From Sulfurimonas sp. (GTDB lineage Bacteria > Campylobacterota > Campylobacteria > Campylobacterales > Sulfurimonadaceae), in the NCBI GenBank assembly GCA_022712845.1, contig JAFLJV010000151.1, positions 1-11,897 on the forward strand: a stretch of DNA of 11,897 nucleotides. The letters are read 5' to 3'. The position numbers and the translations under genes were made by a program. Shown piece after piece: positions 2,217 through 11,897 of this stretch. How positions within the stretch are numbered: position 1 is the first letter of the stretch; every line of letters begins with the position of its first letter. The notes beneath the pieces were generated by a model. That model made no database searches. It had not been told where the DNA came from and saw only the letters and a list, made by a program, of their open reading frames with translations.

Positions 2217-4169
2217 ATGAATTATGATGTAATAATTGTTGGTGGTGGACATGCTGGAGTTGAAGCAGCACTTTCATCTGCTAGAATGGGAAGCAAAATT
2301 TTAATGATATCTATGCTCGCTGAAAATGTTGGAGCAACTAGTTGTAATCCAGCTATTGGTGGTTTAGCAAAAGGGCATTTAGTTCGTGAGCTTGACGCAC
2401 TTGGTGGAGAGATGGGTCTTATAACTGATGAGGCTGGTATACAGTTTCGTATCCTTAACCAAACAAAAGGTCCAGCAGTTCGTGGAAGTCGTGCTCAAAT
2501 AGATATGGATAAATATCGTGTTATTGCTAGAAATAAAGTTTTAAATACTCCAAATTTAGATTTAGTTCAAGAGATGGCTGAATCTTTGATTATAGAAAAA
2601 ATAAGTCATCCTGAACTTGATTCAGGATCTGAGATTCCAAATCAAGTTTGGAATGACGATAACACTAAGATTATAGGTGTTAAAACAAACCTTTTAAACG
2701 AATACAAAGCAAAAAAAGTAATTATAACTTGTGGAACATTTCTAAAAGGAATTATCCATATTGGAGAGACCCAACAAGAGGGTGGAAGATTTGGAGAGCA
2801 GACAAGTATAGGTTTAAGTGCTTCACTTAAAGAGTGTGGTTTTGAGATGGGACGTTTGAAGACAGGTACATGTGCAAGAATAAACAGTTCATCTATTGAT
2901 TTTTCAGTAATGGAAGAGCAGGGTGGAGATGAGATTCCTAACCCTTTTAGTTTTAGAACCAATAGAGAAGAGTTTAGAGCTAACAAAAAACAAATTCCAT
3001 GTTTTATAGCTTATACAAATGAGACTACACATACTATTATAGAGTCTAACTTTTACAGAGCACCACTTTTTACAGGTCAAATAGAGGGAACAGGTCCAAG
3101 ATATTGTCCAAGTATAGAGGATAAGGTAAATAGATTTCGAGATAAAGATAGACACCATCTTTTTATAGAGCCACAAACTATTGATAATACAGAGTGTTAT
3201 ATAAATGGTATGAGTACATCTATGCCACCAGAAGTTCAACAGCAGATGATTCACTCTGTAAAAGGGATGGAGAATGCAAAGATAGTTCGCTTTGGATATG
3301 CAATAGAATATGATTTTGTAGATCCAAGAGAGTTAAAACACTCATTAGAGACAAAAAAAATAAAAGGGCTTTATTTAGCTGGTCAGATTAATGGAACTAC
3401 AGGTTATGAAGAAGCAGCCGCACAAGGTTTGATGGCAGGGATAAATGCAACACTTAGTTTGCAAGATAAAGAACCACTAATTCTAAGAAGAGATGAAGCG
3501 TATATAGGTGTTTTAATAGATGATTTAGTAACAAAAGGAACTAAAGAGCCATACAGAATGTTTACATCTCGTGCAGAGTACAGACTTCTTCTTCGTGAAG
3601 AGTCAGCTGATACTAGACTTTCTAAGTATGGGTATGAATTAGGGTTGTTAAGTGATGAGGTTTACGAAGCTGTTAAGTTAAAAGACAAACAGATTCAAGA
3701 TGGACTTAAACTTCTTAATGAGACGAAATACACTCCAAATAAAGAGTTTATAGAGCTTTTAGTTTCTATGGATGAGGAGAAGATTAAAGATAGTATTACC
3801 GCTCAGCAATTAATTGCAAGAAAGAGTTTTGATACTAAAAAGATGGTTACACTTCTTCCAGAGTTAGATAAATATAGTGAGTATATAAAAGAAGAGATTT
3901 TAGTAGAGGGAAAATATTATCGTTATATTATAAAACAGGCCGAAGAGATAAAGAGGATGAAAAAGTATCTTAAGGTTAAAATTCCTGAAGGATTTGACTT
4001 TAAAAATGTTAGTGGACTCTCTAAAGAGATAGTTGAAAAACTAGAAACTTACAACCCTCCAACGCTTCAAAATGCTTCAATGATAAGTGGTATAACACCA
4101 GCAGCAATAGAGATACTTCACATATATATAAAAATTGCTGATAGAAAAACAACAAATAAAGTAAGGTAG
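2217..4169 (+). CDS. mnmG: tRNA 5-carboxymethylaminomethyluridine synthesis enzyme MnmG (GidA)
   Basis: FAD-dependent subunit of the MnmEG complex, which installs cmnm5U at the wobble position of several tRNAs. The 650-residue product has the FAD-binding GGGHAG (9-14), SCNPAIGG with catalytic Cys43, [18 protein letters not shown] with the second conserved cysteine at 297, NGISTS-type and [16 protein letters not shown] motifs, [19 protein letters not shown], and the C-terminal SGLS...SGITPAAI signature. It is about 20 residues longer than E. coli MnmG. The excess maps to residues 128-150, where the protein reads [18 protein letters not shown]: a palindromic intergenic-type repeat translated in frame, located in the loop where E. 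coli has a short Asn-Asp turn after LIVE. The rest of the gene looks intact, so the protein is probably functional. The next gene starts 3 nt after the stop. Confidence 0.97.
2605..2657 (+). repeat. palindromic repeat pair inserted in frame within mnmG
   Basis: Two head-to-head units of the family seen in the intergenic regions. The left unit starts GTCATCCTGAACTTGATTCA and has stem ATCCTGAA/TTCAGGAT around loop CTTGA. The right unit (about 2633-2657) has stem ATTCCAAA/TTTGGAAT around loop TCAAG and ends GGAATGAC. The left unit equals the reverse complement of the copy at 11341-11365, and the right unit equals the reverse complement of the copy at 11403-11428. Outer ends are GTCAT...ATGAC. 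It is read through in a stop-free frame as mnmG residues 130-147. Confidence 0.93.
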
Positions 4170-7884: not shown

Positions 7885-7912
7885 GTCACTCTCAGCTTGA
7901 CTGGGAGTCTAA
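7885..7912 (+). repeat. palindromic repeat unit (plus orientation)
   Basis: GTCACTCTCAGCTTGACTGG, then GAGTCTAA. Stem CTCTCAG/CTGGGAG with one G-T pair around the CTTGA loop. Same family as the element inside mnmG. It pairs head-to-head with the unit at 7931-7958. These units fill the 344-base gene-free stretch between petC and the RDD gene. Confidence 0.85.
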
Positions 7913-7930
7913 TCTTTATATATAAATAAC

Positions 7931-7958
7931 TAGATTCCGTGTCAAGCACGGAATGACG
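7931..7958 (-). repeat. palindromic repeat unit (minus orientation)
   Basis: TAGATTCCGTGTCAAGCACG, then GAATGACG. Perfect 8-bp stem ATTCCGTG/CACGGAAT around loop TCAAG. With the preceding unit it makes a GTCA...TGAC bounded pair with an AT-rich spacer. Confidence 0.9.
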
Positions 7959-7966
7959 AAAGTATC

Positions 7967-7994
7967 GTCACTCTCAGCTTGACTGGGAATCTAA
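7967..7994 (+). repeat. palindromic repeat unit (plus orientation)
   Basis: GTCACTCTCAGCTTGACTGG, then GAATCTAA; nearly identical to the unit at 7885-7912. It is part of a 50-bp segment (7945-7994) copied at 8074-8123. Confidence 0.88.
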
Positions 7995-8014: not shown

Positions 8015-8042
8015 TAGACCCTGAATCAAGTTCAGGGTGACG
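8015..8042 (-). repeat. palindromic repeat unit (minus orientation)
   Basis: TAGACCCTGAATCAAGTTCA, then GGGTGACG. Perfect 8-bp stem ACCCTGAA/TTCAGGGT around TCAAG. Second half of a head-to-head pair with 7967-7994. Confidence 0.9.
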
Positions 8043-8073: not shown

Positions 8074-8123
8074 AGCACGGAATGACGAAAGTATCGTCAC
8101 TCTCAGCTTGACTGGGAGTCTAA
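8074..8123. repeat. 50-bp direct duplication containing a truncated and a full repeat unit
   Basis: Matches 7945-7994 at 49 of 50 bases, offset 129 bp, and differs only at 8118 (G) versus 7989 (A). It holds the right half of a minus-oriented unit (GCACGGAATGACG, left half missing) plus a full plus-oriented unit at 8096-8123. It must have been copied as a block, cutting the first unit at its loop. Confidence 0.9.
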
Positions 8124-10228: not shown

Positions 10229-10256
10229 TAGATTCCCAGTCAAGCTGAGAATGACG
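10229..10256 (-). repeat. palindromic repeat unit (minus orientation)
   Basis: TAGATTCCCAGTCAAGCTGA, then GAATGACG. Stem ATTCCCAG/CTGAGAAT with one C-A mismatch around TCAAG. Its right part is identical to 10290-10315. Confidence 0.82.
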
Positions 10257-10320: not shown

Positions 10321-10349
10321 CGTCACCCTAAACTTGATTTAGGGTCTAG
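10321..10349 (+). repeat. palindromic repeat unit (plus orientation)
   Basis: CGTCACCCTAAACTTGATTT, then AGGGTCTAG. Perfect 8-bp stem ACCCTAAA/TTTAGGGT around CTTGA. It ends 12 nt before the moaA SD (GAGGA, 10361-10365). Confidence 0.9.
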
Positions 10350-10374: not shown

Positions 10375-11340
10375 ATGCTAACAGATAACTACGATAGAGT
10401 AGTTGATTATCTTCGTGTCTCTGTAACAGAGAGATGTAATTTTAGATGCCAATACTGTATGCCTGAGAAACCTTTCTCATGGGTTCCAAAAGAAAATTTA
10501 CTATCTTTTGAAGAGTTATTTGAATTTATGAAAATAGCTATTGATGAAGGTGTTAAAAAAATTCGTATAACTGGTGGAGAACCTCTTCTTCGTGTTGATT
10601 TAGATAAATTTATTAAAATGATTTATGACTATAAACCCACAATTGATTTAGCTATGACAACAAATGCTTTTTTACTTAAAAATGCTGCTCAAAAATTAAA
10701 AAATGCTGGACTTAAACGTATAAATGTAAGTATAGATACACTAAAGCCTGAAGTTGCACAAATTATAGCAGGTAAAGATGTTTTAAAAGATGTGTTAGAT
10801 GGAATTGATGAGGCACTAAAAGTTGGACTTAAAGTAAAAGTAAATATGGTTCCTATGAAAAATATGAATTTTGAAGAGATAGTTGATGTTTTAGAGTACT
10901 CCAAAGAGCGTAATATGTCAATTCGATTTATAGAGTATATGGAAAATAGATTTGCTTCTAAAGAGATAAGTGGAGTAAAGTCTGATGAGTTATTAAAAGT
11001 TCTTAAAGAGCATTATGAGTTTGAAGACGAAGGTTTTGATGGTTCATCCCCTTCTCACTATTTTCGCATGAGAGATGGATATAGATTTGGTTTGATTGAA
11101 CCTTATAAAGATGATTTTTGTAAGAAATGTAATCGTATAAGGCTCACTGCTGAGGGTAATTTAATTCCATGTCTGTATTTTGATGAAGCACTTAGTATAT
11201 CTAAAGCTATAAAGGCTGGTGATATTAAAGGGGCAGCTGAAATTTTAAAGGAAGTTGTAAGAACTAAACCTGAAAAAAATAGATGGGGTGGAGATGATTC
11301 AGAAGTATCATCTCGTGCTTTTTATGAAACTGGTGGGTGA
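10375..11340 (+). CDS. moaA: GTP 3',8-cyclase MoaA (molybdenum cofactor biosynthesis)
   Basis: Radical SAM enzyme that converts GTP to 3',8-cyclo-GTP, the first step of molybdenum cofactor synthesis (with MoaC). The 321-residue product has the radical SAM cluster motif C21-x3-C25-x2-C28 ([12 protein letters not shown]), the SAM-binding GGEP (67-70), a second [4Fe-4S] motif from Cys249, Cys252 and Cys266 ([19 protein letters not shown]), and the C-terminal Gly-Gly tail (320-321) needed for catalysis. Length is normal. The SD GAGGA lies 9 nt before the ATG. The stop codon is contiguous with a palindromic repeat. No other moa or moe gene is in the window, so it stands apart from the rest of the pathway. 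Confidence 0.97.
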
Positions 11341-11365
11341 GATCCTGAATCAAGTTCAGGATGAC
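11341..11365 (-). repeat. palindromic repeat unit abutting the moaA stop
   Basis: GATCCTGAATCAAGTTCAGG, then ATGAC. Perfect 8-bp stem ATCCTGAA/TTCAGGAT around TCAAG. It starts right after the moaA TGA, and is the exact reverse complement of the left unit inside mnmG. Confidence 0.92.
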
Positions 11366-11395
11366 AAACGCTTGGTTCAGGATCTCAACCACTTG
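11354..11395. repeat. two tandem 21-bp half-unit repeats
   Basis: Two copies (11354-11374 and 11375-11395) match at 17 of 21 bases and begin GTTCAGGAT and end ACTTG or GCTTG. The same 21-bp unit, with small changes, is tandemly repeated downstream of the GIY-YIG gene at 11811-11894. Confidence 0.75.
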
Positions 11396-11402
11396 TATAG
11401 CT

Positions 11403-11429
11403 CGTCATTCCAAACTTGATTTGGAATCT
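11403..11429 (+). repeat. palindromic repeat unit (plus orientation)
   Basis: CGTCATTCCAAACTTGATTT, then GGAATCT. Perfect 8-bp stem ATTCCAAA/TTTGGAAT around CTTGA. Its reverse complement is the right unit inside mnmG. Confidence 0.92.
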
Positions 11430-11439
11430 TTAATGTGTT

Positions 11440-11491
11440 CGTCATTCCAAACTTGTACCCCAAGGGCATTTCCTATGGGCATTTGGAATCT
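11440..11491 (+). repeat. palindromic repeat unit with a nested hairpin in its loop
   Basis: Same ends and stem as the unit at 11403-11429 (ATTCCAAA 11444-11451, TTTGGAAT 11482-11489), but 25 extra bases (11456-11480) lie between CTTG and A of the loop. The extra sequence folds itself: CCCAAGG pairs with CCTATGGG (one bulged A) around GCATTT. It is the unit nearest the 5' side of the GIY-YIG gene. Confidence 0.85.
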
Positions 11492-11508
11492 CTAATTTAG
11501 GAATTTAA

Positions 11509-11793
11509 ATGAATTCATATATCTATATAATGACAAATAAATCAAAAGGAACTTTATATATAGGTGTAACATCAAATATTATAAAAAGAATTTATGAACA
11601 TAAAAATAAATTAACAGATGGTTTTACAAAGAAGTATAATCTTAAAAAGTTAGTTTATTATGAAATTTATGATGATATTGATGAAGCAATTAAAAGAGAA
11701 AAACAATTGAAATCTTGGAAGAGAGAATGGAAAATTGAATTAATTGAGAAAATAAATGATAATTGGAATGATTTATATGATGAAATATTATAG
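11509..11793 (+). CDS. small GIY-YIG nuclease-domain protein
   Basis: A 94-residue single-domain GIY-YIG protein, the small YhbQ/UPF0213-like type. The first motif reads YIYIM (4-8), the second LYIGVTSNIIKRIYEH (16-31) with Tyr17, Gly19, Arg27 and His31, then FTKKYNLKKLVYYE (39-52), and AIKREKQLKSWKREWK (60-75) with the likely metal-binding Glu64. The C-terminus NDNWNDLYDEI matches the family ending N-x-x-W-x-D-L. All expected catalytic residues are present, so it should be active, cutting one DNA strand through a metal-dependent mechanism as known for the fold. TAGGA at 11498-11502 serves as SD. Its codons are more AT-rich than those of neighbouring genes. Both flanks are made of the palindromic repeats, which suggests it belongs to them. 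Confidence 0.93.
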   Translation: MNSYIYIMTNKSKGTLYIGVTSNIIKRIYEHKNKLTDGFTKKYNLKKLVYYEIYDDIDEAIKREKQLKSWKREWKIELIEKINDNWNDLYDEIL

Positions 11794-11795
11794 AT

Positions 11796-11822
11796 TAGAT
11801 TCTGAATCGAGTTCAGAATGAC
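11796..11822 (-). repeat. palindromic repeat unit (minus orientation)
   Basis: TAGATTCTGAATCGAGTTCA, then GAATGAC. Perfect 8-bp stem ATTCTGAA/TTCAGAAT around TCGAG. It lies 2 nt after the GIY-YIG stop. Positions 11798-11840 match 11341-11383 at 36 of 43 bases, so the gene is also flanked by direct repeats. Confidence 0.88.
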
Positions 11823-11894
11823 AAACACTTGGCTAAGAATGACAAACACTTGGTTCAGAATGACAAACACTTGGTTCAAAATGACAAACACCGT
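11811..11894. repeat. 21-bp tandem repeat, four copies
   Basis: Copies start at 11811, 11832, 11853 and 11874, each built on GTTCAGAATGACAAACACTT plus G, with few substitutions. The unit contains the right half of the palindromic repeat (TTCAGAATGAC) plus a short spacer. The final copy runs into CGTCAC at 11892-11897, which looks like the start of another plus-oriented unit cut by the window edge. Confidence 0.9.
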
Positions 11895-11897
11895 CAC

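Follow-up and report, generated by a model that had tools for sequence, protein, structure and literature searches.

The window, by which we mean the whole analysed stretch of 11,897 nucleotides, carries genes for MnmG, an RDD protein and a small GIY-YIG protein, all three named from profile matches (Pfam, NCBIfam). Among the other genes are presumably recQ, a ribE-like gene, a bc1-type operon, a porin gene and moaA, as judged from the sequence. The features considered here are the following.

2217–4169, plus strand: mnmG (gidA), host gene of the insertion, 650 aa (open frame, profile matches and alignment to E. coli MnmG)
2598–2660, plus strand: excess over the empty relative L001, 63 nt (21 codons), edges approximate
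2605–2630, plus strand: CGTC-type REP unit 1, tag AGTC, encodes SHPELDSGS
2632–2657, minus strand: CGTC-type REP unit 2, CGTC tag intact (2655–2658, minus strand), encodes EIPNQVWND
7885–7910, plus strand: CGTC-type REP unit, intergenic
7932–7957, minus strand: CGTC-type REP unit, intergenic
7967–7992, plus strand: CGTC-type REP unit, intergenic
8016–8041, minus strand: CGTC-type REP unit, intergenic
8096–8121, plus strand: CGTC-type REP unit, intergenic
10230–10255, minus strand: CGTC-type REP unit, intergenic
10322–10347, plus strand: CGTC-type REP unit, intergenic
11340–11365, minus strand: CGTC-type REP unit, identical to the reverse complement of 2605–2630, overlaps the moaA stop codon by its final base
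11404–11429, plus strand: CGTC-type REP unit, identical to the reverse complement of 2632–2657
11509–11793, plus strand: GIY-YIG nuclease gene, 94 aa (PF01541, E 1.2e-16), within the repeat cluster 11340–11897; candidate REP mobiliser or processing nuclease
11797–11822, minus strand: CGTC-type REP unit directly 3′ of the GIY-YIG gene

The repeat doublet in mnmG

The mnmG frame (2217–4169), which codes for a conserved enzyme of tRNA modification, is open over 650 aa, and its product was matched along the whole length by the Pfam profile GIDA (532 bits) and by NCBIfam TIGR00136 (856 bits, cut-off 525). The sequence-only reading of this DNA had placed an insert peptide of 18 residues in an otherwise normal MnmG, and the same peptide was read here. 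In the alignment to the E. coli MnmG structures 3CP2, 3CES and 9HIP there is a single 21-residue gap exactly at the insert, with gapless alignment on its sides, which bears out the earlier estimate that the loop is 21 residues longer than in E. coli. Among the 196 relatives found, of which the best 80 were used, the closest MnmG loci belong to Sulfurimonas MAGs.

Twelve CGTC-type REP units were found in the window, both mnmG units included. The latter two lie in opposite orientation with a 1-nt gap between them and are 77% complementary; their GTC ends point outward, and their ATCT tails meet at the centre. This head-to-head pair had been described as made of reverse complements of distant units, and the matches are exact, 26/26 between 2605–2630 and 11340–11365 and 28/28 between 2632–2659 and 11402–11429, each about 8.7 kb apart. 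A chance palindrome is ruled out by exact matches of this length over such a distance. The doublet itself spans 53 nt (2605–2657), and the excess over L001 is 63 nt, which corrects the extent given before; the edges of this excess are only approximate because the flanks have diverged as well. The 229 units in the loci examined have 35 distinct sequences, and the two in the insert are the commonest of these; the loci were in part picked for likeness to the insert.

As for the class of these repeats, unit 2 has the CGTC tag, and unit 1 has AGTC, which lies outside the listed variants (CGTC, TGTC, CCTC). The units have an 8-bp stem (ATTCCAAA/TTTGGAAT) starting with A-T and a 5-nt loop, CTTGA. The unpaired tail of the window units reads CT(A/G/C/T), as against the CCA given for “most” CGTC units in the covered sections of the published description (PMC3733652). 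Besides the 12 units of the window, 20 or more units are present in 19 of 135 Sulfurimonas genomes, with a maximum of 299. Folded as RNA, the doublet is predicted to form a strong hairpin (−23.1 kcal/mol, z −5.1). Reading frames +0, +2 and −2 are open in 97–99% of the 229 units, one further frame is open in 56%, and two are never open. Since three of the six frames are nearly always open, in-frame survivors are easily made. A tandem with 21-nt spacing (AATGACAAACACTTGGTTCAG) was also noted at 11823–11897, up to the window edge, apparently consisting of partial units in an array.

Recurrent filling of the MnmG turn

In a structure model of MnmG, strands 121–128 and 150–157 flank the insert, and residues 130–147 have a pLDDT below 50. 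Only the local hairpin was used from this poor model (whole-model mean pLDDT 56), for which a fold search ranked MnmG structures first. The beta-turn proposed earlier as the site of the insert is recovered as the turn of a predicted beta-hairpin, at low confidence. By a hand count on the alignment, it corresponds to about residues 131–134 of E. coli MnmG. Residues 100–160 lie in the FAD domain according to a 2025 paper on the MnmE–MnmG structure, and in the sections of that paper covered here the turn residues are not named among the MnmE contacts (PMC12397908).

The turn is empty in 77 of 80 MnmG loci, these 80 being the best among the 196 relatives. Among the other three, L013 and L072 have other long inserts and L050 has four residues. 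The case in which all relatives carry the extra residues is thereby excluded, and the proposed in-frame insertion of a dispersed palindromic repeat agrees both with the empty site in relatives and with the match of the insert to repeats in DNA. An alignment with close relatives had been suggested in order to find an empty site and the exact junctions; it gave the former, and the latter are known approximately. The case resembles the Rickettsia palindromic elements (RPE) in that the insertion is in frame, the gene is still open and relatives have an empty site. The insertion in mnmG is, in our opinion, well supported.

When a 46-residue query covering the insert region was searched against about 5.8 billion proteins, the same insert was found in two further MnmGs, P0001 and P0002 (2 matches among 54 candidates). 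This search was not exhaustive, because P0054 and P0063, which have such peptides, were not returned. The array of P0054 used as a protein query gave 6 matches among 5399 candidates, P0054 counted. With the window DNA as query against the 135 Sulfurimonas genomes, at most 6 candidates being scored per genome, a CGTC insert in mnmG was found only in G065 among the matches listed.

An alignment of 201 MnmGs was made from the window, the above 80 loci and, out of 8000 scored proteins, the 120 that were listed. Internal insertions of at least 3 residues relative to L001 occur in 17 of the 201 sequences, and all 17 lie at the same beta-turn; they represent 15 distinct filled sequences because L072/P0020 and L013/P0031 are near-identical pairs. 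The fillers differ in sequence and range in length from 4 to about 85 aa. The filler of P0054 consists of four tandem 60-nt CGTC doublets, as confirmed in the DNA of G065 (37.8-kb contig), which agrees with P0054 over the part covered, and P0063 has another CGTC filler, judged by peptide only. The fillers of L072 and L013 are GGAAGT-tagged palindromes of the type CGGAAGTGRGRCTTCAGYCYCGC, confirmed in DNA and unrelated to the CGTC type. In G009, the genome of L072, the core of this palindrome occurs 20 times (0 times with the pattern reversed), but in the L013 genome only twice, one of these being the mnmG filler. By peptide, the fillers of P0024, P0003 and P0094 resemble the GGAAGT family; those of P0023, P0093, P0059, P0061 and L050 were assigned to neither repeat family. 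The MnmG beta-turn is thus a recurrent landing site for repeats of two unrelated families.

According to a FastTree tree of 192 distinct sequences, built with the insert columns removed and the filler types labelled by hand, there were 15 changes of filler state from an empty root. The window, P0001 and P0002 are placed apart in a clade of 74 sequences, 68 of which are empty, and the nearest relatives are empty or differently filled (P0004, P0003).

The inserts of the window, P0001 and P0002 are identical. We are evenly divided on whether this reflects one insertion that was passed between species by homologous recombination of mnmG segments, or an old insertion that was often lost, and not repeated insertion of the same doublet. 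The immediate flanks are also common to these inserts (KI before, DD.TK after). In addition, P0002 looks mosaic: every block of its residues 1–426 is 97–100% identical to P0004, which is empty while P0002 is filled, and beyond 426 it is nearest to the L030/L045 clade. Inter-lineage exchange, or a chimeric contig that could also produce the mosaic, therefore belongs to the picture. However, a single insertion leaves P0054 and P0063 (other lineages, other junctions) and the GGAAGT fillings unexplained. Homologous exchange between species has probably also spread the filled allele.

It seems improbable that the extra loop is useful to MnmG and has been retained by protein-level selection. One and the same 21-residue peptide is found in the window, P0001 and P0002, and elsewhere their MnmGs are 86.6–89.3% identical, but recent exchange accounts for this identity equally well; moreover, the variation among the fillers and the empty or otherwise filled state of the nearest relatives argue against such co-option. 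An ancestral MnmG loop without relation to the repeats is ruled out by the 77 empty relatives and by the identity of the insert with dispersed repeats at the DNA level, and an assembly artefact, to which repeats can give rise, is ruled out because two other assemblies (P0001, P0002) encode this insert too and the 37.8-kb contig of a third (G065) encodes a related one, so that both have a negligible probability.

Clustering of CGTC repeats near the genes of one GIY-YIG nuclease subfamily

The protein encoded at 11509–11793 belongs to a set of 39 close GIY-YIG loci, comprising the window, 14 loci from the genus and 24 new ones from the phylum search. Residues Y6, Y17, G19, R27, H31 and E64 are invariant in 39/39 sequences, and N83 is conserved at 0.97; we take these seven to be the catalytic residues of GIY-YIG. 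A GIY-YIG match at E 1e-5 or better is present in 111 of 135 genus genomes, and a close one (E below 1e-33) in 14. Ten of these 14 genomes have 20 or more CGTC units versus 9 of the 121 others (Fisher p 1.8e-7, ignoring kinship). In the phylum sample (397 genomes; GIY-YIG threshold E 1e-15 or better), five or more copies of GTCATTC...GAATC occur in 12 of 24 genomes with the gene versus 22 of 373 without it (p 2.8e-8, ignoring kinship); 4 of these 24 genomes are also among the 14 of the genus.

GTCAT...ATC repeats lie at most 400 bp from the GIY-YIG gene at 25 of the 39 loci, on both sides at 22, and shuffles by composition gave 0.02 in total. This count refers to the relaxed pattern; with the strict-stem pattern, repeats were found beside 19/39. 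No such repeats were found beside distant GIY-YIG paralogues in either the 400-bp or the 600-bp test (0/16, the control being only those 16 weaker matches for which loci were at hand). When a second repeat, GTCATTG...GCAATC, was included, 36 of the 39 loci had repeats within 600 bp, 33 on both sides, but this pattern was picked post hoc after viewing G116, one of the 39. At that locus (L246, G116:C1:329500–337500), the GIY-YIG gene stands amid roughly 18 copies of a further CGTC-started repeat (CGTCATTGCGAG...CGGCAATCTC), and a neighbouring MBOAT gene of 597 residues appears to be decorated in frame by the same repeat.

The density of CGTC units relative to the genome mean, determined in 7 of the 14 genomes, was 36x at 0–1 kb from the GIY-YIG gene, 20x at 1–3 kb, 10x at 3–6 kb and 1.4x at 6–10 kb. 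Farther out the course is not monotonic, with 8.0x at 10–15 kb, 1.0x at 15–20 kb and 3.7x at 20–30 kb; 14 of the 21 units in the 10–15 kb bin come from G065, and 8 of them are its mnmG array. In the window, G065, G016, G032 and G112 the GIY-YIG gene comes after moaA, and in G115 before it; the distance between mnmG and the GIY-YIG gene is 7–10 kb in the window and G065. A position near mnmG is not general, since moaA is absent from the 3.3-kb GIY-YIG loci of G003 and G007. It should be noted that nine CGTC-rich Sulfurimonas genomes have no close GIY-YIG match (e.g., G008 with 299 copies and G109 with 227). In G013, G041, G060 and G135, the GIY-YIG gene is present with 0–2 units of the CGTC pattern, and other GTCAT repeats adjoin it.

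Genes other than mnmG have also received units. Well inside frames of at least 150 aa lie 29 of 238 distinct CGTC units, a proportion that gives no genome-wide rate because the loci were fetched partly for their repeats. A single MBOAT gene of G003 holds 15 of these 29; mnmG accounts for 2 in the window and 6 in G065, and the remaining 6 occur singly. Two of the single cases (L005, L044) look like upstream extensions and L149 is ambiguous; the other three are in frames matching HsdM, a HIT protein and an NAD-dependent epimerase. The unit in the HIT protein is near the N-terminus, and therefore the assigned start may be wrong. The MBOAT protein of G003 (P0121, G003:C32:57475–59610, locus L232) has 712 aa, 279 of which fall in five in-frame CGTC-coded segments marked by eye; about 1.2 kb separates its gene from that of the GIY-YIG protein in G003. 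An alignment to 10 relatives of 390–486 aa (3 of 13 loci fell outside the length filter) showed seven runs missing from most relatives, all of which overlap REP-coded segments. In other assemblies, P0122, P0123, P0124 and P0125, among them a restriction-modification methylase and a kinase-like protein, have 12-residue segments of repeat type and are probably REP-decorated.

Y1_Tnp enzymes were matched in 4 of 8 genomes searched. Seven matches lie in the CGTC-rich genomes G003 and G065, and one of them (L228, G003:C30:4665–5003) has CGTC units inside the 400-bp limit, a cluster 145 bp away on one side. No Y1_Tnp match was found in G016, which has 113 CGTC units. In G009, a Y1-type (RAYT-like) transposase gene truncated by the contig start (L231, G009:C65, 26–313 and 329–408) ends in a GGAAGT palindrome, with a second unit just past it, and the GGAAGT-filled mnmG is on the same contig, about 16 kb away. 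There is no shown link between the GGAAGT fillings and the GIY-YIG gene.

Relation to known repeats and proposed mechanism

The earlier account of the insert set it in parallel to the Rickettsia elements, but in a different phylum. One of the genera with published CGTC repeats, Sulfurovum, is itself a campylobacterote. In the sections covered of Di Nocera et al. (2013), the superfamily of CGTC-tagged REPs includes RPE-4 and RPE-6 of R. conorii (CGTC-4 and CGTC-1, respectively) and CGTC repeats are given for Sulfurovum sp. NB37-1 (PMC3733652), so that a mere parallel, new to another phylum, is not supported. The window repeats fit this superfamily, and the kind is therefore already known. The same sections describe intragenic CGTC copies in several species, some of them translated, and report a shared insertion site only for recB of two Xanthomonas species (PMC3733652). 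They state that CGTC elements apparently have no transposase dedicated to them and that RAYT or IS200 transposase genes flanked by CGTC units were not found (PMC3733652). RPE-1 of Rickettsia is a separate, longer element.

As far as these sections go, the window repeats resemble the published CGTC REPs: the GTCA...ATC units have an 8-bp stem starting with A-T and a 5-nt loop, as in the CGTC-2 family, and they form dimers that are mostly intergenic, with some in genes and translated. They depart from the description in a tail that reads CT where CCA is the most frequent form, and in the GIY-YIG gene that often adjoins the units. Like RPE-4 and RPE-6 as described there, they stand in frame in genes whose proteins are apparently functional; unlike those, their host is Sulfurimonas-like, a single turn of one protein has been hit repeatedly, and two unrelated repeat families are involved. 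The arrangement also recalls the RAYT-linked repeats (REPtrons), in which a nuclease gene is flanked by repeats possibly mobilised by its product, although in the window the repeats surround a GIY-YIG gene. The GGAAGT palindromes of G009, with a Y1_Tnp gene that has a repeat at its 3′ end, are arranged as in REPtrons.

The Ssn family of GIY-YIG single-strand nucleases reportedly acts on the Neisseria repeat NTS (Nature Communications, 2025), which we take to be dRS3. By description only, the window is similar to that system in pairing a small GIY-YIG protein with a dispersed GTCATTCC-type repeat and different in its host, which belongs to Campylobacterota. To our knowledge, intragenic landings and a density gradient were not part of the Ssn work. 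In the covered sections of the 2013 paper, dRS3 is equated with CGTC-1 (PMC3733652). Among the matches listed in our literature search (open papers, titles and abstracts), we found none that pairs GIY-YIG genes with CGTC REPs or has a REP inserted in MnmG, and none on a recurrent landing site in MnmG or on a density gradient around GIY-YIG genes. The repeat class and its intragenic occurrence being already known, the interest lies mainly in the MnmG hotspot and in the link to the nuclease.

Based on the above results, we consider the following explanation likely. The CGTC-type REP doublet 2605–2657, together with about 10 further bases, is inserted in frame in the FAD-domain turn of MnmG and adds 21 residues, its spread presumably having been promoted by the GIY-YIG protein and its presence accepted by a tolerant turn. 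As a possible course of events, the GIY-YIG nuclease, presumably Ssn-like, would cut single-stranded repeat DNA, and this cutting would promote the copying or re-insertion of units; since the nuclease is proposed to cut the repeats, new copies would be seeded mostly near its own gene. The mnmG gene would lie close to this source, and selection would leave only the in-frame hits in the tolerant turn. The insert-bearing MnmG is presumably made and functional.

More tentatively, and without claiming that the balance is yet in its favour, we suggest that CGTC-type REPs in general may have a dedicated enzyme, namely a small GIY-YIG nuclease acting on single strands, which would copy or move them for the most part close to the gene that encodes it. 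If this reading is true, neighbouring genes would be bombarded with units open in most frames, and rigid enzymes, MnmG for example, and membrane proteins, for instance an MBOAT acyltransferase, would repeatedly gain translated loops at a few tolerant sites.

On the other hand, the units may have spread by other means, such as template switching, duplication driven by hairpins, recombination among copies or the action of a Y1-type transposase. The GIY-YIG gene may then be a passenger that tolerates the repeats or is regulated by them. The nine CGTC-rich genomes that lack a close match to the GIY-YIG protein, the resemblance of the G065 array to a tandem duplication of a 60-nt unit, the strong hairpin predicted for the doublet and the Y1_Tnp match next to a CGTC cluster in G003 are in line with this. 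However, a passenger would not be expected to be tightly flanked by genome-specific repeat variants in one GIY-YIG subfamily, nor to be the centre of a fall in density within 10 kb, and its flanking is absent from all 16 distant paralogues; a Y1-type enzyme is at odds with G016 and its many units. We therefore regard spread by such means as possible but rather unlikely.

Under the proposed role of the nuclease, a candidate answer is offered to a question left explicitly open in the covered sections of the 2013 paper, that is, what moves CGTC-type REPs, those of Rickettsia included (PMC3733652). The repeated colonisation of one protein turn by different small repeats amounts to insertion scanning of a conserved enzyme carried out by nature, and it indicates that bacterial repeats can repeatedly give proteins new segments. 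If the link to the nuclease is true, the spread of REPs, the decoration of genes and a single-strand nuclease would form one system.
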